Shown piece after piece: positions 1,373 through 33,940 of a stretch of DNA of 64,000 bases. The position numbers and the translations under genes were made by a program. How positions within the stretch are numbered: position 1 is the stretch's first letter; each line of letters opens with the position of its first letter. This DNA comes from an uncultured Gammaproteobacteria bacterium (GTDB lineage: Bacteria; Pseudomonadota; Gammaproteobacteria; Steroidobacterales; Woeseiaceae), in the NCBI GenBank assembly GCA_937899415.1, contig CALBPI010000001.1:1-64000 (forward strand), written 5' to 3'. Below the pieces are notes generated by a model that made no database searches, had not been told where the DNA came from, and worked only from the letters and a program-made list of their open reading frames with translations.

Positions 1373-3436
1373 CTAGTTGCCGGCCTCGTAGGCGCCCACA
1401 TCGGGTGCGCCATCCACGGGACGCGCCTCACGCTGGGCGTTGTCGACGTATTCGTAGATCGGCGCCAGTGACTGGCCTGCCGCGGCGCCAACGGCCACGC
1501 CCCCATCAATCCCGGCGGAACCCGGATTGAGGCGGTAGTCGTAGTTGCTACGATCCACGAAGCTCGGCGAGGTACCGGTTATGTTGCCGCCAGAGGCCGT
1601 CGGCGACTTGCCACTGTAGGTGCTGCCTGCGTCGTAGAAGATGTTGTTGTAGGACTCGAGAATCGTCGTGCCGCCATTCGATTGCACGAACGTCCCCGAA
1701 AATCGGTCGTTGACGATCGTGTTGTGGGACAGGTAGAGCTCGTGGTCACGCCCACCAGAGAGGCCCTCGGCCCCGTATGCGATGATTGCCGAGTTCGGTG
1801 AATTGGGTCCCTGCTGGATGATGTTGCCGATCACAAAGGTACGACCGCCATTGGGTACGTCAATGTTGTAGCTGCCGTTACCCGTCGCTTCGTCCATGAG
1901 CCGGTTGTAAACGATGATGTTCTCGCGGGCACGGGTCTTGAGCGCGTGACCGAAGTTTGCGCGACGCGAGTTGTTGTAGCGGAACACGAGCCGGTCGCCT
2001 TGTTGACTGCCCGCAACGACGTAGACGTTGTGGGTAAAGCCCTGGTCGCCGAGCCCGTTGTTGTCGAATTCCGAGTACTCGAAGGTCAGCGTGCCGATCG
2101 CCTCACCCAGGTAGCCGTTTTCGTTGTCATGGAAGTAACCGTTACACACCGTCAGGTCGCGGCCTTCACCGCGGATGCCAGCACCGTTCTCACTCGGTAC
2201 CGTCACACCCGAGAACTCGATGTTCTCGATACGGATGTCCGTACCGCGGGTCACGAAGAGTCCCTTGCCATTCTTCAGGTCGTTACCCGACTCGAAGGGA
2301 ATTTCCTGCGTGGCGCGCACATGGGCGCGACCGCCGACGCCGCGCACGACGATGTTGTCTTCGCGGAACACGATAATGTTGTCGTCGTAGACCCCGGCGT
2401 CCACTTCAATGACGCCACCGTCCTGCAAGGCGTCTGCCGCTGCCATGATATCGGCGTACTGCTTGCCGGGGCCGACCTGCAGCAGCTGCTGCGGACCGAC
2501 GTTAGCAACCGTGCCATTGCCGTCCACGGTCACCTGCTGGGTGCCTATGAAGCTCAGGCTGTCGTTGCCGCCCGGCTGATCTGATGCCGCGTCCGGTGTA
2601 AAGGCCAGCGTGTAGTCGCCGGGGTTCAACGTATCGATCGCGTAGCCGAACTCGCAGCTGTTTTCGAATTGAAGCACGTCCGCGGTCACGATCGGGTCAC
2701 CGGCGTCGCCATCGATGTCGTCGGGCGTCGCGCCGGCCGGGAAGACGTAGACGCGATTCACGCCCTGCTCCGCGATGCGACTCGAGTCAATCTTGCCGCT
2801 GAGCGTGGCGCTGCCGCCGCCGCCCCCGGGTGCCACCTGAACCGTGACCGACTCCTGCGCCGTGCCACCGGGGCCATCACAGCTCAGGATAAAGACGGCT
2901 GTGTCCTGCAAAGGCGCGGTCTGCTCGCTGCCGGACAGCGGCTTGCTCCCTGACCAGTCGCCCGAAGCCGTGCAGGTTGTCGCGTCGGCACTGTTCCAGC
3001 TGATCGTCGCCGCCGCATTGAGCGCCACCGAGCCTGGGGATGCCAGCAGCGTCAGCGACGGCATCGGCGGCGGCGGATTGTCGACAAACACGGAGCGGGT
3101 CTGGCTCACCGCACCACCATCACCCTGGCAGCTCAGTGTGAACTGGGCGTCCTGGGTCATATTGGAAATCGTCTCGGAACCGTCGAGCGCCTTGTCACCC
3201 GTCCAGCCGCCACTGGCGCTGCAGGCCGTCGTGTTCTGCGAGGACCAGGTCAGCGTTACTGACTCTCCGGACTGCACCTGCAGCGACGAGGCGGAAAAAG
3301 ACAACGTTGGCGCAGGCGGCGGCGTCGCTGTGTTGTCGGGGCCGGGATCATCACCACCGCCGCCGCCACAGGCAGCGACCAAAGAGGCCGCACCCGCCAC
3401 GGCGAGCAGTCGCCAATGCGTTTGACGTGTTGCCAT
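1373..3436 (-). CDS. Secreted lipoprotein with Ig-like repeats and right-handed beta-helix
   Basis: The 687-aa protein starts at the ATG at 3436, which has a GGAGG ribosome-binding site. Its N-terminus, MATRQTHWRLLAV followed by LVAAC, is a lipoprotein signal with a lipobox. A poly-Gly/Pro linker follows, then two approximately 80-aa Ig-like repeats carrying the signature C-x-A-S-G-x-W-[ST]-G (about residues 40-200). The C-terminal half is a parallel beta-helix: VGPGKQYADIMAAADAL and VIEVDAGVYDDNIIV begin a ladder of short Asn/Gly-rich coils. Beta-helix proteins often bind, cut or epimerise polysaccharides; no catalytic residues can be assigned here. It lies 22 nt downstream of the next secreted-protein gene and is probably co-transcribed with it under the c-di-GMP riboswitch. 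Confidence 0.8.
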   Translation of the reverse strand: MATRQTHWRLLAVAGAASLVAACGGGGGDDPGPDNTATPPPAPTLSFSASSLQVQSGESVTLTWSSQNTTACSASGGWTGDKALDGSETISNMTQDAQFTLSCQGDGGAVSQTRSVFVDNPPPPMPSLTLLASPGSVALNAAATISWNSADATTCTASGDWSGSKPLSGSEQTAPLQDTAVFILSCDGPGGTAQESVTVQVAPGGGGGSATLSGKIDSSRIAEQGVNRVYVFPAGATPDDIDGDAGDPIVTADVLQFENSCEFGYAIDTLNPGDYTLAFTPDAASDQPGGNDSLSFIGTQQVTVDGNGTVANVGPQQLLQVGPGKQYADIMAAADALQDGGVIEVDAGVYDDNIIVFREDNIVVRGVGGRAHVRATQEIPFESGNDLKNGKGLFVTRGTDIRIENIEFSGVTVPSENGAGIRGEGRDLTVCNGYFHDNENGYLGEAIGTLTFEYSEFDNNGLGDQGFTHNVYVVAGSQQGDRLVFRYNNSRRANFGHALKTRARENIIVYNRLMDEATGNGSYNIDVPNGGRTFVIGNIIQQGPNSPNSAIIAYGAEGLSGGRDHELYLSHNTIVNDRFSGTFVQSNGGTTILESYNNIFYDAGSTYSGKSPTASGGNITGTSPSFVDRSNYDYRLNPGSAGIDGGVAVGAAAGQSLAPIYEYVDNAQREARPVDGAPDVGAYEAGN

Positions 3437-3458: not shown

Positions 3459-6164
3459 TCAGGCCGCGAGACGCGCGGCACGACGCCGGCGCGCAACGAG
3501 CCCGGAGCCCAACACCAGCAGCCAGAGCGGCGCTACCGCACCACCGCCGCCGGAGTCGTCACCACCCGTGGCGCCGCCGCCCGAGCCGCCACCACCGGAA
3601 CCGCCCCCGCCGGAGCCACCGCCACCCGTGCTCGCGTTCACCGTCACGGATACCGACCGGCTGACATCGCCGCCCGCACCCGTACAGTTGAGCGTGAAGC
3701 TCTGGTTGCTCGTGAGGTTGGTCATGGTCTCGTTGCCATTGAGCGGCTTGCTGCCCGACCAGTCGCCCGAAGCCGTGCAGCTCGTGGCGTTATCGGCTGT
3801 CCAGCTCAGCGATACGGATTCGCCGCTCTCAATAGTGTTCTGGTCGCTCGAGAAACTCAGCGTCGGCGCCTCGGGCGGAGGCGGTGGTGGTGGCGGTGTG
3901 CTCACCGTCACCACGGCGCTGTCGGAGCTTGAGCCCAATGTGTTGCTCTGGCAGGTCAGCGTGTAGGTCGCGTTCTCGTCGATGTTGTCGATGGTCTCGG
4001 AACCCGACGTCGCCTTGTTGCCGGCCCAGTCGCCTGAGGCACTGCAGGTGTCAGCGTTCTCGCTGGTCCAGCTCAGTGTCGTTGACCCCCCTGGCTGGAC
4101 CGACGTGGGGTTTGCCGAGATCCCCACCGTTAACTGCGGACTGCCCAGATTGTGTGGCACCACGCCCCAGATGGGATTGTTGCCGTAACTGGGACTGACG
4201 CCCGATGCCTGCGACAGGTTCCAGGCCTGTACGCCACCCGCGACGCCTGAGTCGAATGCTGCCGCAACCGCGGGCTGAAGGTTCGCAAACCAGTACGTGG
4301 TGCTGGTCTGGTCGCCCGTCATCCCGTTCGCACCAACACCCAGAGCCGATGACATCTGCGAACTACCGCAGGCGATACTGGCCACAGACGATGCCGTGTT
4401 CTCGTAAACGGTACGCCAGTCATCATAGAAATTGCTCGACCCGCCCGGACCGACTCGCCAGGTGTAGCGCGGCGCCGACTGGAAGCAATAGCCATTGTCA
4501 TCGTCGCCCATCAGGCCGATCGGGAACTGAATTTTGTAGTCGCGAAACGGAATCGCGTCTGTGAAGCCAAGGTCAACGAGGTACTGCGACGTCCAGGACA
4601 TGAAATAGTCGTAGAAGCGGTACTGGTCCGTACCCTCAGCCATCGACATCGCGCCGAGGTTGTTCTTGGCGGGGCCGCCCGGGCTTACGTATTTGGCCGT
4701 GTCATTGGCGATGTTCTTGCTGAGCTTGTCGAGCAGGTACGCCTTGTACGGGTGATCATCCGGGGTGATGTAGGCCGCCTGCGCGAGCGAACGGTAGGCC
4801 CAGGCCTGACCGCGAAGCGAGCCCGTGTACCACCAGCCATCGCTGCCGTTGCGGTAGTTCGCATTGGTCCAGATGAGATTAAAAGCCGACCAGAAGTGTG
4901 ACTCTTCGAGGTAGTAGTAATCCCCCGACACCACGTAGGGCAGGTAACCGACAGACGGTTGGTGCGACGAGCCACTCCCTTCGAAATAGGGGGAGTCACT
5001 TGACGGTTCGGGAATCGCGGGATTGCTGCCTGCTGAATCCGCCAGCGAAGAATTGGGGTAGTCATCGATGGTAATCGGCAAGCCCGTTTGCTCATCACGA
5101 AGGTGAATGCTGTAAGCGCCACCGCCGTCGGCATTCGCGTTCATGAAATTAAAGGCACGAACATCCGTGCTTACGGCATAGACCGCGTCCCAGCGCGGCA
5201 GCGGCCCGATGCCGTCCTGATAACCGGTGGCGTCCATGTTGTCGGTGTGGTCACCGTTATCCATGGGTGCCGTCGACTGACGCACACCGTTCAGGTAGCT
5301 CTGGCTGGGATTGACATCGACGTAGCGCGGAATCGCCTTCGTCGATTGCAGGTAGTCGTGGTCGTGCTTCGCGTAGAGTTCAGGGTCACCGCCCCACCAC
5401 ACGACGCGGTGCCACCGCGCCCGCGAGTAATGCGTCAGCGAATTCTGATAGCTGCTCGCGCCAGGAACACTGATCGTGACGTCGTAGCTGCGATTCTGCG
5501 CGCCCGGTACGAACGACCAGTTGTTCTCGAACACCACGTCCACACGGGCGCGCGAGACGGGCTGACCGTCGTATGCGCGGATGTGGAAGTAGACCGCAAG
5601 GTGCGGGTGCTCATTGCCGGAGCCATCGACGACGGCCCCACCACCGATCCACTCGGATACCAGCGGGCCTTCAAGCCATTGGCTTGCGCCAGCAAGCGCA
5701 TCGCGGGCGGAGGCCGTGTACTGCGTGCCGCCGACGTTCATGGTGACCGTCGTGTCAAAGGTTGATGCGAGCACGTCGGCAGCTGTCACCGCGGAGCCCG
5801 AAAGGCCGCTGCTGGCCGTCGCGAGCGTCACCGTGTCATTGGCGCTGGCAGAAACCGTGTCCAGCGACAGCGTCAGGATGGCGTGCCGCAGTGACCCGTC
5901 CGCGTGCGCGGCTTTCTTGTCGACCTGGAGCGGAATCGAACCGCCGTCCGATCGCGTCGCAACGAGCGATTCGTTGGCCGCGACGTCGCCGGGGCGGAAC
6001 ACATGGCCGAAGGTCAGGTGGGTGTTGCTCTTGGACTGATTCTCGAGGTTCTGAACCTGGAGCGTCGTCACGGGCGCGGCCTGAGCCGCGGCACTCGCGA
6101 GGATCGCCACGACGGCGATCATGCGTGCGCGCCAGCGAGCGCCCACGGTGGGGGAATTAAACAC
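3459..6164 (-). CDS. Secreted protein with Ig-like repeats and GlyGly-CTERM-like anchor
   Basis: About 901 aa from the GTG at 6164, which has GGAGA 8 nt upstream and gives a proper signal peptide (RWRAR, then a hydrophobic stretch ending AAAQA). In-frame ATGs at 6230 and 6122 are alternatives. The large N-terminal part (about 30-620) is rich in Trp/Tyr and glycine, and stretches such as WWYTGSLRGQAWAYRSLAQAA suggest a helical toroid-like carbohydrate-active domain; I do not recognise the family with certainty. Two Ig-like repeats with C-x-A-S-G-D-W follow, homologous to those in the downstream lipoprotein. The end is a Gly/Ser-rich linker, a hydrophobic helix (VAPLWLLVLGSGLVA) and an Arg cluster. 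This is the GlyGly-CTERM layout, not PEP-CTERM. The gene is likely controlled by c-di-GMP through the leader RNA upstream. Confidence 0.75.
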   Translation of the reverse strand: MFNSPTVGARWRARMIAVVAILASAAAQAAPVTTLQVQNLENQSKSNTHLTFGHVFRPGDVAANESLVATRSDGGSIPLQVDKKAAHADGSLRHAILTLSLDTVSASANDTVTLATASSGLSGSAVTAADVLASTFDTTVTMNVGGTQYTASARDALAGASQWLEGPLVSEWIGGGAVVDGSGNEHPHLAVYFHIRAYDGQPVSRARVDVVFENNWSFVPGAQNRSYDVTISVPGASSYQNSLTHYSRARWHRVVWWGGDPELYAKHDHDYLQSTKAIPRYVDVNPSQSYLNGVRQSTAPMDNGDHTDNMDATGYQDGIGPLPRWDAVYAVSTDVRAFNFMNANADGGGAYSIHLRDEQTGLPITIDDYPNSSLADSAGSNPAIPEPSSDSPYFEGSGSSHQPSVGYLPYVVSGDYYYLEESHFWSAFNLIWTNANYRNGSDGWWYTGSLRGQAWAYRSLAQAAYITPDDHPYKAYLLDKLSKNIANDTAKYVSPGGPAKNNLGAMSMAEGTDQYRFYDYFMSWTSQYLVDLGFTDAIPFRDYKIQFPIGLMGDDDNGYCFQSAPRYTWRVGPGGSSNFYDDWRTVYENTASSVASIACGSSQMSSALGVGANGMTGDQTSTTYWFANLQPAVAAAFDSGVAGGVQAWNLSQASGVSPSYGNNPIWGVVPHNLGSPQLTVGISANPTSVQPGGSTTLSWTSENADTCSASGDWAGNKATSGSETIDNIDENATYTLTCQSNTLGSSSDSAVVTVSTPPPPPPPPEAPTLSFSSDQNTIESGESVSLSWTADNATSCTASGDWSGSKPLNGNETMTNLTSNQSFTLNCTGAGGDVSRSVSVTVNASTGGGGSGGGGSGGGGSGGGATGGDDSGGGGAVAPLWLLVLGSGLVARRRRAARLAA

Positions 6165-6347
6165 GTGTCTGCATCTCCATGCTGAAGTCGGGTCGTTCAG
6201 TGACGAAATACCGTTTGCCTGCACATTCATCGCTTTCAGTGCTGCTGCAGAAATCAACAGAGATGGAAATTTGGGTCGGAGGGTTGTTTTCCAGATCGCC
6301 CGAAACCGTCCAATACGGCCGGAACGACGCTGCCAGACCCGAATTTT

Positions 6348-6427
6348 CCTAGCGGCCCCGCTGTCTGTCCCAGGGACAGATCGGTGGCTTTGCGTCTCTG
6401 CTTCGCAACAGATTTGCCTTTGTTAGG
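6348..6427 (-). promoter_or_regulatory. Cyclic-di-GMP-I (GEMM) riboswitch aptamer
   Basis: Read on the minus strand, the segment carries the GEMM-I hallmarks in order. They are the closing helix CCTA/TAGG, then GGCAAATC, a hairpin with a GCGAAG-type tetraloop (TCTG/CAGA stem), the invariant GAGACGCAAAGCCACCG, a short hairpin CTGTCC/GGACAG, and CAGCGGGGCCGCTAGG. This lines up closely with the Vc2 aptamer of Vibrio cholerae as I remember it. The base matching Vc2 G20, which separates c-di-GMP from cGAMP sensors, is G. The aptamer ends about 180 nt before the GTG start of the downstream secreted protein. Whether the expression platform turns the gene on or off cannot be read with certainty. Confidence 0.88.
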
Positions 6428-6518
6428 TGAGTCGACCTTAGCGAGTCGAAAGTGCGAAGGCAACGCGCCCGAAAGGCCTTTTTGGACAGAATCCGACGCG
6501 CGTCACAGAGCGCAGGTA

Positions 6519-6535
6519 TTCAAGCGACGTGCCAA
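6519..6535 (-). promoter_or_regulatory. Sigma-54 (RpoN)-like promoter
   Basis: The minus strand reads TTGGCACGTCGCTTGAA. This matches the -24/-12 consensus TTGGCACG-N4-TTGC with correct spacing and one change (GA instead of GC at -13/-12). The predicted start near 6508 gives a leader that includes the c-di-GMP aptamer. Sigma-54 control is known for PEP-CTERM/EPS genes served by the PrsK/PrsR two-component system, and prsK is in this window. Confidence 0.55.
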
Positions 6536-6598
6536 CTCGCGCCCTTCTTTGAAAAACATGCGCTTACTTCAATAAGCTACAAATCGCCTGATCGCGAT

Positions 6599-6700
6599 TG
6601 TCGGTGTCTGGCGACATCTGTTTGAGTATTTAACTTAACTGGATGATATTTAACATTTTTCGGGTGTCGGCAACCGGAGACGCGTGTCAGAGACCTGACA
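6599..6700 (-). promoter_or_regulatory. Two TGTCR palindromes, candidate enhancer sites
   Basis: TGTCG-N8-CGACA (6599-6616) and TGTCA-N6-TGACA (6685-6700) lie about 65 and 150 bp upstream of the sigma-54-like promoter. That is the usual distance for sites bound by sigma-54 activators such as PrsR. The assignment is inferred from position and symmetry only. Confidence 0.3.
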
Positions 6701-6812
6701 ATGGGTGGATTCAGCAACCAGCTTGAAGGCCGGTTTTGCGCAGATTTCGCGTTGTGTGGACCCCGTCACACCCTGCTCTGGGCGCCGCTACCCATTTTGC
6801 GCGAATCTTCTT

Positions 6813-6821
6813 TGCTAAAAT
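6813..6821 (+). promoter_or_regulatory. Extended -10 promoter element for the TPR/ACP operon
   Basis: TTGCTAAAAT contains the extended -10 form TGnTAAAAT. There is no good -35 box, as is usual for extended -10 promoters. A start near 6828 leaves a leader of about 37 nt before the ATG at 6865 and supports that start over the upstream in-frame codon at 6736. Confidence 0.4.
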
Positions 6822-6864
6822 CAGGTCACATACTCAGGGGTCACCAGTACATCGGGAACCACAC

Positions 6865-7530
6865 ATGCTAGGCAGGCTTACACGCTCCTCAGCAATGGTC
6901 GCAACGGCGATCATTGCCGCCGCTTGCGCCCTCGCACCAACCGCCGTCGCACAGCTCGACCCGGAATGCGGACGGCTGGACAATGCCTATGGCCCGTACG
7001 ACTACACGAATGGCATGCACCGTCGCGAGTACCTGCGCATCGTGGAACTGCGCCACTTCACGCCCAAGGTGGAAGGTCTCATCGCGGGCGAGTCGGGCGG
7101 CCTGATCCACGACATCGATTACACGCTGCGCGCTTTCCCCAACCATCACCGCGCGCTCTACGCGATGGTGCGGTTTCAGCTCAAGGACCCCGTGCGCCCG
7201 GGCTCTCGTTACTACACGGCACGTTGCTACCTTGAGCGTGCCACAACGTTCAAGCCGGACGACCCCATTCCACGGCTGCTTTACGGTATCTACCTGCAGG
7301 GCAAAGACGACCTTGAGGGCGCGCGTGACCAGTACGAAATGGCGTTGCGCATCGACCCGCAATCCGCTGAGGTCAACTACAACGCCGGACTCCTGTACCT
7401 GAAGCTCGGCGAGCACGAGAAAGCGCTGCAGGCGGCACACACGGCCTATGCCAACGGGCACCAGTTGCCCGGGCTGCGTAACCAGCTCAAACGCCGCGGC
7501 TTGTGGCAACCTCCGGCTGACAGCAGCTGA
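6865..7530 (+). CDS. Periplasmic TPR-repeat protein
   Basis: A 221-aa protein. The ATG at 6865 is chosen because it opens a clear signal peptide (MLGRLTRSSAMVATAIIAAA, then PTAVAQ). The C-terminal half contains about three tetratricopeptide units, seen in YGIYLQGKDDLEGARDQYE and NYNAGLLYLKLGEHEKALQA, each with the helix-turn-helix spacing and Ala/Gly/Tyr positions of TPRs. It probably scaffolds protein contacts in the periplasm or outer membrane. It is first in the plus-strand operon that continues with the acyl carrier protein and hydrolases, so a role in the exosortase/EPS pathway is inferred from context only. Confidence 0.75.
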   Translation: MLGRLTRSSAMVATAIIAAACALAPTAVAQLDPECGRLDNAYGPYDYTNGMHRREYLRIVELRHFTPKVEGLIAGESGGLIHDIDYTLRAFPNHHRALYAMVRFQLKDPVRPGSRYYTARCYLERATTFKPDDPIPRLLYGIYLQGKDDLEGARDQYEMALRIDPQSAEVNYNAGLLYLKLGEHEKALQAAHTAYANGHQLPGLRNQLKRRGLWQPPADSS

Positions 7531-31870: not shown

Positions 31871-33940
31871 TTAGCCCGACGCTTCCTGCAGCGAAGCGAG
31901 CAGCGGCAGCGATACGATAAACGTTGTGCCCTTGCCGGGCGCACTGTCGACGGTGACCACACCGCCGAAACTCTGCACGGCGTCGCGCGCCTGGAAGACC
32001 CCGATACCCATGCCTTGTGCGCCCTTCGTGCTCACGAAGGGCTCGAAGAGCTTGGTGTCGATGAACTCGCGCGTCATCCCGGCACCCGAATCCTGGATGT
32101 CGATACGCGCCCGCGCGGCGGTATCCTGGGCGCCTGGCTCCGCGCGCAGCGTGACCACGATCTCACCGTCCACGGGCGTTGCATCCTGTGCATTGCGCAG
32201 CAAGTGCTGGAGCGCCGAACCGAGCCGTTCGCCGTCACCGAATACGGGCATGGGATCGTCGCCCGCCTCATTGGCGAGGCGCGGTTCGGGTTGGCGGTCG
32301 CTGACATCGGCACAGACCTTCTCGAGCAAGGTCACAAGATCCAGCGAACGCGTCGTCTCGCCGGCGCGACCGGATTCGAGCTGGCCGAGCAGACGACGCA
32401 TACGCTTTACGGAGTTATCGATGGTGGCAATGGCATCATCGATGAACTCAGGATCGTCCTTGTGACGCTTGGCATTGGCTACCACCAGGGACTGCTGCGC
32501 GATGAGGTTCTTGAGATCGTGCATCACGTAGGCCGAGAACTTGTTAAAGACCTCGAACTGCCGGGCCTGGGTCAGATCGCGCTGAATCCGGCTTTGCTCC
32601 AGGAACACAGCGAGCTGGCGACCCACCGTGCGGAACAGGTCGTGGTCTTCGTAGTTGAGATCCGGCAGTCCGGCGGGCCGGATGATGGCCGCAAACCCCG
32701 TTAATGCATCGTCGAGCACGACTGGCACGATGATCCGGTCCGCAAGGAGGTCCCGCGCCTCGGCATCGTCGAGCGCGTCCCGATACGCTTTGGGGTTTTT
32801 CTGTGCCTCACGATCGTCCAGCACCCAGCCCGAGTGTTCGAGAAATGCCACGATCGGGTGTTCGGCCGCGATGCGCTCGGGTGCCTGGCCCTCACCCGCC
32901 GATGCGGCGCGCCGGTAGACACCCGTGTCAGGCTCGCGCAGCCAGAGCGCGCCGCCGTCGCTGTCGAGGATGCCAACCAGGGAGTCGAGACACAGGTCGG
33001 GCATGGGTGCCCGCGCCGAGTCCTGCGCCAGGCGCCGGATCAGCGTCATCCACTCCTCACGGTAGTCGTAGCGATTCGCGTAGAAGTGCGTTGCTAGGAA
33101 CACCTTGAGTCGGCGCCGGAGCTGCTGGGAGAACAGCATGAGCACCAGCAGGATGATGCTTGCGGAAAGGAACACGATGCGCAACGCCCCGCCCCAGTCG
33201 CCACCCAGGCGCTGCATAAATAGGCTGCCAAAGGCGACGAGCATGAGGTAGGCGCCGACACCGATGAGGCTTGCCGAATAGAACACCACCTGGCGCGAGA
33301 CGAACAAACCGGCTTCCCAGTCGGGGTTGCGCTTGAGCGCGAGCAGCAGCGGCAGGACGACTATGGCGTTGACGAAGCCACGCGCCGCCCAGATCTGTGC
33401 GTCAAGCCGTCCCGCCATGAGCAGGTTGGCGTAGGTGAACAGGTCGAAGACGAACACGGCGCCGAATGACACCGCGACAAGCGAGGCCGCACGCCGGTTG
33501 AGCAGTGACGGGTTGCGATAGACCTGCTCGACGGCGAGCAGACCCAGCAGCGAAATCGCGACGATGAAGTAGTAGGCGAACTGGAAGCCGACCGTCTGAT
33601 CGCTTGCGGTGCGCCAGCCGATAAACGCCGAAACCAGCGGGATGAGCCAGGGCAGCAACGCGAAACTGCGCCGCCAGCCCGAGCGTTCGTGCCGCTGGAT
33701 GAGTTGTCCCAGGAACAACAGAATCGCAAACGCGTGCAAACCGTCGACGGCAACCAGCGCGCCAAGGGGCATGCCACGCCCCGCCGTGAGCGCCATGCCG
33801 ACGCCCCAGGCGGCCATGATCCCGGCCAGCGCAACGAGATAGTTGAACGGCCAGCGCAGACTGCGGCCCGCAAGCAGGAACACGGCCATGCCGGCGTAGG
33901 CAAACGCCGCGATCGAATAACCCAGGGTGACGAGCGTCAT
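31871..33940 (-). CDS. prsK: XrtA/PEP-CTERM system histidine kinase PrsK
   Basis: A 689-aa membrane sensor kinase. About eight or nine transmembrane helices fill residues 1-270. A GAF-like domain follows (about 300-450). The phosphoacceptor His is near residue 473 in YVMHDLKNLIAQQSLVV. The HATPase domain has GDGERLGSALQHLLRNAQDA (N box), DSGAGMT and KGAQGMGIGVFQAR (G boxes). PrsK normally phosphorylates PrsR, a sigma-54 activator of EPS and PEP-CTERM genes. No response regulator is encoded beside it or elsewhere in this window, so the partner must lie outside. Confidence 0.93.
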   Translation of the reverse strand: MTLVTLGYSIAAFAYAGMAVFLLAGRSLRWPFNYLVALAGIMAAWGVGMALTAGRGMPLGALVAVDGLHAFAILLFLGQLIQRHERSGWRRSFALLPWLIPLVSAFIGWRTASDQTVGFQFAYYFIVAISLLGLLAVEQVYRNPSLLNRRAASLVAVSFGAVFVFDLFTYANLLMAGRLDAQIWAARGFVNAIVVLPLLLALKRNPDWEAGLFVSRQVVFYSASLIGVGAYLMLVAFGSLFMQRLGGDWGGALRIVFLSASIILLVLMLFSQQLRRRLKVFLATHFYANRYDYREEWMTLIRRLAQDSARAPMPDLCLDSLVGILDSDGGALWLREPDTGVYRRAASAGEGQAPERIAAEHPIVAFLEHSGWVLDDREAQKNPKAYRDALDDAEARDLLADRIIVPVVLDDALTGFAAIIRPAGLPDLNYEDHDLFRTVGRQLAVFLEQSRIQRDLTQARQFEVFNKFSAYVMHDLKNLIAQQSLVVANAKRHKDDPEFIDDAIATIDNSVKRMRRLLGQLESGRAGETTRSLDLVTLLEKVCADVSDRQPEPRLANEAGDDPMPVFGDGERLGSALQHLLRNAQDATPVDGEIVVTLRAEPGAQDTAARARIDIQDSGAGMTREFIDTKLFEPFVSTKGAQGMGIGVFQARDAVQSFGGVVTVDSAPGKGTTFIVSLPLLASLQEASG

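Follow-up and report, generated by a model that had tools for sequence, protein, structure and literature searches.

The window analysed here, meaning the whole stretch of 64,000 nucleotides (positions 1 to 64,000 of contig CALBPI010000001.1, from an uncultured member of the Woeseiaceae, probably of marine-sediment origin), includes a two-gene operon on the minus strand that is preceded by a long leader (Table 1). The second gene begins 22 bases past the stop codon of the first. Both products read as exported (signal sequence and lipobox by eye), as had been proposed from the letters of the sequence, and the 901-aa protein includes Ig-like repeats (by eye).

Table 1. Features of the operon and its leader (positions in the window)
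Feature	Position	Strand	Basis or remark
687-aa lipoprotein, second gene	1373-3436	minus	lipobox by eye
901-aa exported protein, first gene	3459-6164	minus	PcRGLX-like N-domain (Pfam)
Shine-Dalgarno-like GGAGA	6174-6178	minus	before GTG 6164, read directly
c-di-GMP-I (GEMM-I) aptamer	6347-6427	minus	covariance models RF03167 and RF01051
Predicted transcription start	6508	minus	inferred, 12 nt past the -12 element
Sigma-54-like -24/-12 site TTGGCACGTCGCTTGAA	6519-6535	minus	≤1 mismatch to TGGCACGN4TTGCW
Perfect palindrome TGTCGCCAGACACCGACA	6599-6616	minus	starts 82 nt before the -24 element
Imperfect palindrome CGTCTCCGGTTGCCGACA	6665-6682	minus	8/10 key bases; 148 nt before the -24 element
Distal palindrome TGTCA-N6-TGACA, TGTCAGGTCTCTGACA	6685-6700	minus	starts 166 nt before the -24 element

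A GEMM-I aptamer had been proposed for this leader in the earlier, sequence-only reading, and a covariance-model search bears this out, with scores above the cut-off for both RF03167 (59.9 bits, cut-off 59, E 1.3e-11) and RF01051 (58.7 bits, cut-off 35). The quoted GACGCAAAGCC and the CCUA/UAGG helix (CCTA/TAGG in the DNA) are both present, and when the aptamer is folded alone the closing helix of the minimum-energy structure consists of exactly these four pairs. RF03167 (c-di-GMP-I-GGC) is the top Rfam name, with its cut-off exceeded by just 0.9 bit and a score slightly above that of RF01051. Its hallmark we take to be replacement of A47 by G; this G appears in the RF03167 consensus (GACGCGAA), but the window has an A (GACGCAAA), as in ordinary c-di-GMP aptamers, and the variant ligand was rejected because of the A at this position. 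The ligand contacts are presumably the equivalents of G20, A47 and C92 (position numbering), which read G, A and C in the covariance alignment and, judged from that alignment, are the ordinary c-di-GMP set. The window aptamer is thus like those of RF01051 in covariance score, P1 helix, ligand-contact letters and position, i.e. in the leader of exported-protein genes. A tetraloop and receptor are features of c-di-GMP-I riboswitches, and a GNRA loop (GCGA) is present here, but P3 is a plain hairpin without the common GTCTA[ACG]G motif found in 119 of the 175 aptamers surveyed below.

No intrinsic terminator was found on the minus strand of the window and, in relatives, 11 of 173 loci had one compared to 8 of 173 in one shuffle, which is no clear excess. 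Because of this, the RNA step would probably be at translation or Rho-dependent termination. For the 369-nt leader, lifting the aptamer constraint improves the fold by 7 kcal/mol (-126.7 versus -119.6), and the Shine-Dalgarno sequence is mostly paired in all three computed leader states, so that folding gives no on/off call.

Three c-di-GMP-I aptamers are found in the host genome (3.9 Mb, 102 contigs), namely the one in the window, one on contig C21 that precedes an oxidase-like ORF (by eye) and one on contig C99 that precedes an Ig/FnIII lipoprotein gene. Across the order, GEMM-I is present in 318 of 396 genomes. Two aptamers lie in tandem, ~120 nt apart, in L300 (G044:C21), and L098 (G026:C17) and G017:C14 each include two that are ~1 kb apart. 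One further aptamer, L091 (G050:C21:299899-299985), is preceded by a palindrome and a strong sigma-54 site and has an A at the G20 position (AAAAAGCAAACC); G20A is the cGAMP change in GEMM-I aptamers according to the available text of PMC6274999, and this aptamer is possibly a cGAMP-type sensor.

The same gene pair (41 % identity for the first and 47 % for the second protein) lies behind a GEMM-I aptamer in G009, as do homologues of the first gene in G075 and G088 (32 and 31 % identity) and a homologue of the second in G029 (46 % identity). Since GEMM-I precedes the homologues in all four, the link between riboswitch and genes is, on this comparison, conserved in this group. Judged from homologues in named records, it is not general outside the group: GEMM-I reached the cut-off at 1 of 15 loci scanned (of 80 returned), and that locus matches G009's own contig. 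Among 21 named-record homologues, there were no palindromes at ≤1 mismatch and one sigma-54 site of two mismatches.

A -24/-12-like promoter had also been claimed upstream of the aptamer, and this claim holds in part. No window site other than TTGGCACGTCGCTTGAA comes within one mismatch of the consensus, chance expectation being ~1.1 per 64 kb for both strands and 0.003–0.004 for the 438-nt upstream region on the gene's strand. The GG of the -24 element is intact (TTGGCACG), but the GC of the -12 element reads GA, i.e. the C is missing (TTGAA instead of TTGCW). With a position weight matrix (PWM) built from 16 PEP-CTERM promoters, the site scores 9.5 versus 14.7–22.1 for those promoters, and 7 of 128,000 window positions, the site itself counted, score as well. 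A site of this score was found in 2.6 % (36/1381) of native control segments of 146 nt and in 0.9 % of letter-shuffled segments after palindromes, and a loose pattern that fits TTGGCACGTCGCTTGAA gave 8 matches genome-wide versus 4 for the reversed control. Among the 175 surveyed GEMM-I loci, a PWM score of ≥9.4 within 350 nt was reached at 19 in the sense direction, 9 on the opposite strand and 16 downstream, and hence sites of the window's strength are not clearly enriched; at ≥8, the first 96 loci gave 11 sense versus 11 opposite. Taken alone, the -24/-12 site appears weak and doubtful as a promoter.

The two palindromes with TGTCR half-sites that had been noted further upstream are both there, and an imperfect one lies between them (Table 1). 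The perfect palindrome is the only TGTCG-N8-CGACA in the 64-kb window, and the identical 18-mer occurs in the pilA promoter of G063, which belongs to another family. The distal palindrome resembles CATTGTCAGGAGCTGACA of the host genome's own pilA promoter. When 150 first-order Markov surrogates of the window were examined, none included a perfect palindrome followed (at ~40–220 nt) by a sigma-54 site with ≤1 mismatch. On the plus strand, a divergently oriented gene for a TPR protein shares the region 6599-6866 with the palindromes, which could also serve that gene; no plus-strand sigma-54 site with ≤1 mismatch is found in the window.

The layout was surveyed at 175 unique GEMM-I loci, in which weak aptamers are under-sampled because the loci were drawn from the best-scoring match lists. 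Rows L076 and L080 (aptamer not located) and L129 and L137 (duplicates) were excluded, and matches with near-zero upstream sequence (e.g. G251:C42, G042:C88, G039:C179 and G261:C3) and some others were left out. A sigma-54 site (GG and GC intact, ≤1 mismatch) was present ≤350 nt upstream at 11 of the 175 loci, and the same criterion gave none on the opposite strand and none downstream. At two mismatches the figures were 15 versus 1 on the opposite strand, and a PWM score of ≥14 was found at 14 in the sense direction, 1 opposite and 2 downstream. All 11 loci carry [TC]GTC-N10-GACA or TGTC-N10-GAC[AG] farther upstream, 92–193 nt from the sigma-54 site, and the majority of them lie in front of lipoprotein genes. 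Examined separately in the first 96 loci, TGTC-N10-GACA was present within 400 nt upstream at 9 and downstream at none (shuffles: mean 0.5, maximum 3). Palindromes of two mismatches are common, both upstream (89/175) and downstream (69).

Allowing ≤2 mismatches per element, palindrome and sigma-54 site were found together at 14 loci in 14 genomes. The palindrome starts 92–94, 104–106, 170–173, 183–185 or 193 nt before the -24 element, distances that step by approximately one helical turn, and one additional pair is at 64 nt; near and far palindromes are both present at 8 of the 14. Conversely, 33 loci have a palindrome at ≤1 mismatch, and 13 of the 27 with room to look also have a strong sigma-54 site. 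Lipoprotein genes lie behind 12 of the 14, nine encoding Ig/FnIII-type sequence and three encoding other lipoproteins (beta-helix-like by eye), and the remaining two are one other exported protein and one contig that ends too soon. Pfam searches with two of the nine Ig/FnIII lipoproteins and the one on C99 found He_PIG and fn3 in 3/3; at the C99 locus, a perfect palindrome is present without a good sigma-54 site. In L241 and L258, the layout is on the opposite strand (within 700 nt), as if for divergent genes. As the relatives repeat the order palindrome, sigma-54 site, GEMM-I, lipoprotein gene, these data support, as a layout that recurs, the idea that sigma-54 and c-di-GMP control meet on one mRNA, but not the link to PrsK that had been part of it (see below). 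In the window, the spacing (Table 1) falls outside the main distance classes of the relatives, the perfect palindrome being about one helical turn closer than the common class.

PilR works with sigma-54 at pilA. When 396 genomes of the order were scanned for TGTC-N10-GACA followed after 66–96 nt by TGGCAY-N5-TTGC, 22 matches were found in 21 genomes, compared to 1 for the reversed pattern. Six are before type IV pilin (pilA) genes, with the box at 85–104 nt, six have a GEMM-I aptamer 60–190 nt downstream on the same strand, four precede lipoproteins without GEMM-I at the cut-off and six precede other or unclear genes (L284 and L304 were excluded from the RNA scan of these loci). The scan and the survey are not independent since four of the six GEMM-I matches are common to both. 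In three loci, L295, L296 and L302 (G055, G047 and G020), Ig-type lipoproteins follow a palindrome and sigma-54 site with no GEMM-I at the cut-off, and all three have a tRNA gene upstream. On contig C60 of the host genome, the PilS gene (PF25323, 89.4 bits) lies side by side with those of a pilin and of a sigma-54 response regulator at 70393-71721, and the pilin promoter includes TGTCAGGAGCTGACA and TGTCAGCCTGTGACA, then TGGCACAAGCCTTGCT. The hallmarks of PilR sites given in the available text of PMC6058289 are TGT-N11-AGA and GTCT elements. Because of these hallmarks, the same layout before pilA, the identical G063 box and the host cluster, PilR appears the likeliest activator, ahead of PrsR.

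Hence, in the reading that we prefer, and to which we give somewhat better than even chances, the leader (6164-6700) places the two exported proteins under two-input control, by a PilR/sigma-54 promoter and a c-di-GMP riboswitch. The inverted TGTC half-site boxes, ~80–170 nt before the -24 element, would serve as binding sites for a sigma-54 activator, PilR being the likeliest, and this protein would open the -24/-12 promoter despite its degenerate site. The transcript would begin near the predicted start, placing the aptamer ~80 nt into the RNA, and c-di-GMP would set the yield of the two proteins. The outcome would be surface proteins that are produced while the pilus two-component system is active, with c-di-GMP as the tuning signal. 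The palindromes lend the promoter support and would indicate an activator other than PrsR, and we consider the window promoter probably functional, with some uncertainty, though weak or recently degraded.

The most serious alternative, itself unlikely in our view, is that the riboswitch is real but a sigma-70 promoter serves it; the -24/-12 likeness would then be a remnant or a product of chance, and a different regulator would bind the palindrome. In line with this are the defect of the -12 element, the absence of a clear excess of sites at this score level and a sigma-70-like site in the window at 6670-6643 (CCGACA-16-TATCAT, 9/12; 0.3 expected). Two of the loci with homologous genes also fit, as their TGTCT-N8-AGACA palindrome is directly followed by a sigma-70-like promoter (by eye), TTTGCA-17-TATAGT in G009 (L085, ~G009:C26:10985) and TTTTCA-17-TATATT in G029 (L088, ~G029:C1:102780). 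Neither has a sigma-54 site (best PWM score 3.8), and those of G075 and G088 are weak (9.2 and 10.8). However, the perfect palindrome and the one-mismatch sigma-54 site, each the sole example in 64 kb, form a pair with a spacing of 82 nt, in the order seen in the 14 modules of relatives. In the relatives, one factor may act with both sigma-54 and sigma-70 polymerases.

That the promoter is of the sigma-54 type and is served by a third activator which reads inverted TGTC, neither PilR nor PrsR, we regard as improbable. Further candidates do exist, as a search of the genome with the PrsR model gave 33 matches, 12 of them below 1e-50. The TGTC/GACA words of 25 pilA promoters peak at 110–160 nt, rather than near 95 and 175, and those of the GEMM-I modules peak at 60–110 and 160–210 nt, and because of this difference the activator may not be PilR. 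However, the six pilA promoters among the 22 scan matches have their box at 85–104 nt.

The sequence-only reading had instead looked to the partner of PrsK, and had assigned the 901-aa protein to the surface proteins of the XrtA locus. PrsK is indeed encoded in the window (31871-33940, 585 bits), and PrsR is found at C62:21091 (707 bits). In the available text of Haft 2006 (PMC1569441), PEP-CTERM promoters combine a PrsR-linked box with sigma-54; motifs 1 and 2 have a TTTACA ending and a mean spacer of 62.8 nt. In the host genome, C58:113718 alone matched the PEP-CTERM model TIGR02595 at E ≤0.001, and the promoter of this gene (TGTCGGCATGCTTTACA, 62 nt, TTGGCCCGTCTTTTGCT; PrsR box and sigma-54 site) agrees with these motifs as they appear there. 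Read from PEP-CTERM promoters, the PrsR box of the lineage is TGTCG-N6-TTTACA, the left half of which is also TGTCG. This box is partly selected, because the search rule, matched by 17 of 30 PEP-CTERM loci, required a TTTACA-like word and because L162, which lacks TGTCG, was left out along with four second or third rows; the box PWM used one row each from 16 modules. Upstream of the operon, where a PrsR box (motif 1) would be expected 30–95 nt before -24/-12, the best PWM score was 0.0 in the orientation of the gene and 3.8 in the opposite one, versus 12.0–24.7 for the training boxes, and PrsR was rejected as the activator because the box is absent from the window. The half-sites there are instead palindromic and differently spaced, and similar palindromes precede pilA. 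Given this absence, a sigma-54 promoter driven by PrsR is very improbable. Nor does the 901-aa protein look like an XrtA substrate, since it has no NCBIfam family at E 0.001, no PEP-CTERM match and a C-terminus that forms a Gly-rich/hydrophobic/Arg tail.

Extending the preferred PilR reading, we tentatively propose, at slightly less than even chances, that in the Woeseiaceae and their order PilR drives pilA together with a regulon of surface lipoproteins (Ig/FnIII, or beta-helix by eye) whose mRNAs carry c-di-GMP-I riboswitches, the window operon being a member with a shifted and weakened promoter. This would amount to a two-key system, with pilin or surface status as the gate on transcription and c-di-GMP as the gate on the transcript. 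A recurrent module of promoter and riboswitch that brings both inputs to the same lipoprotein genes would give a defined AND-type gate, would, from sequence alone, outline a PilR regulon that extends past pilA and would point to unstudied surface proteins of mostly uncultured bacteria. The comparison of boxes also gives a means to separate PilR-type from PrsR boxes in this lineage.

The individual parts are known. GEMM-I is an established riboswitch class, and PilS-PilR and c-di-GMP both provide input to life on surfaces. Control by PilR or another sigma-54 activator joined to GEMM-I as a recurrent module was not found in a non-exhaustive literature search, and the combination appears undescribed in the literature searched; the available text of PMC10599522 mentions PilR, GEMM and riboswitch without joining them. 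c-di-GMP riboswitches precede PEP-CTERM genes according to the part of PMC12530212 that was available. The window shares with PrsK-PrsR control of PEP-CTERM genes, as far as PMC1569441 was available, the setting of an XrtA genome and a promoter of sigma-54 type in front of genes for exported proteins, but differs in the box and in the absence of a PEP-CTERM match on the protein. In Geobacter, a distant group, GEMM riboswitches likewise precede genes for FnIII-domain proteins with a presumed cell-surface location, though the accessible portions of PMC2996986 and PMC13194489 name no sigma-54 site or PilR box. A further close system is PilS-PilR control of pilA, which the window resembles in its inverted TGTC boxes upstream of -24/-12, in the 18-mer that is the box of one pilA promoter and in a host genome where PilS, response regulator and pilin genes are adjacent; it differs in its spacing of 82 nt and in its putative targets, exported proteins other than pilin that would be expressed through a riboswitch leader.
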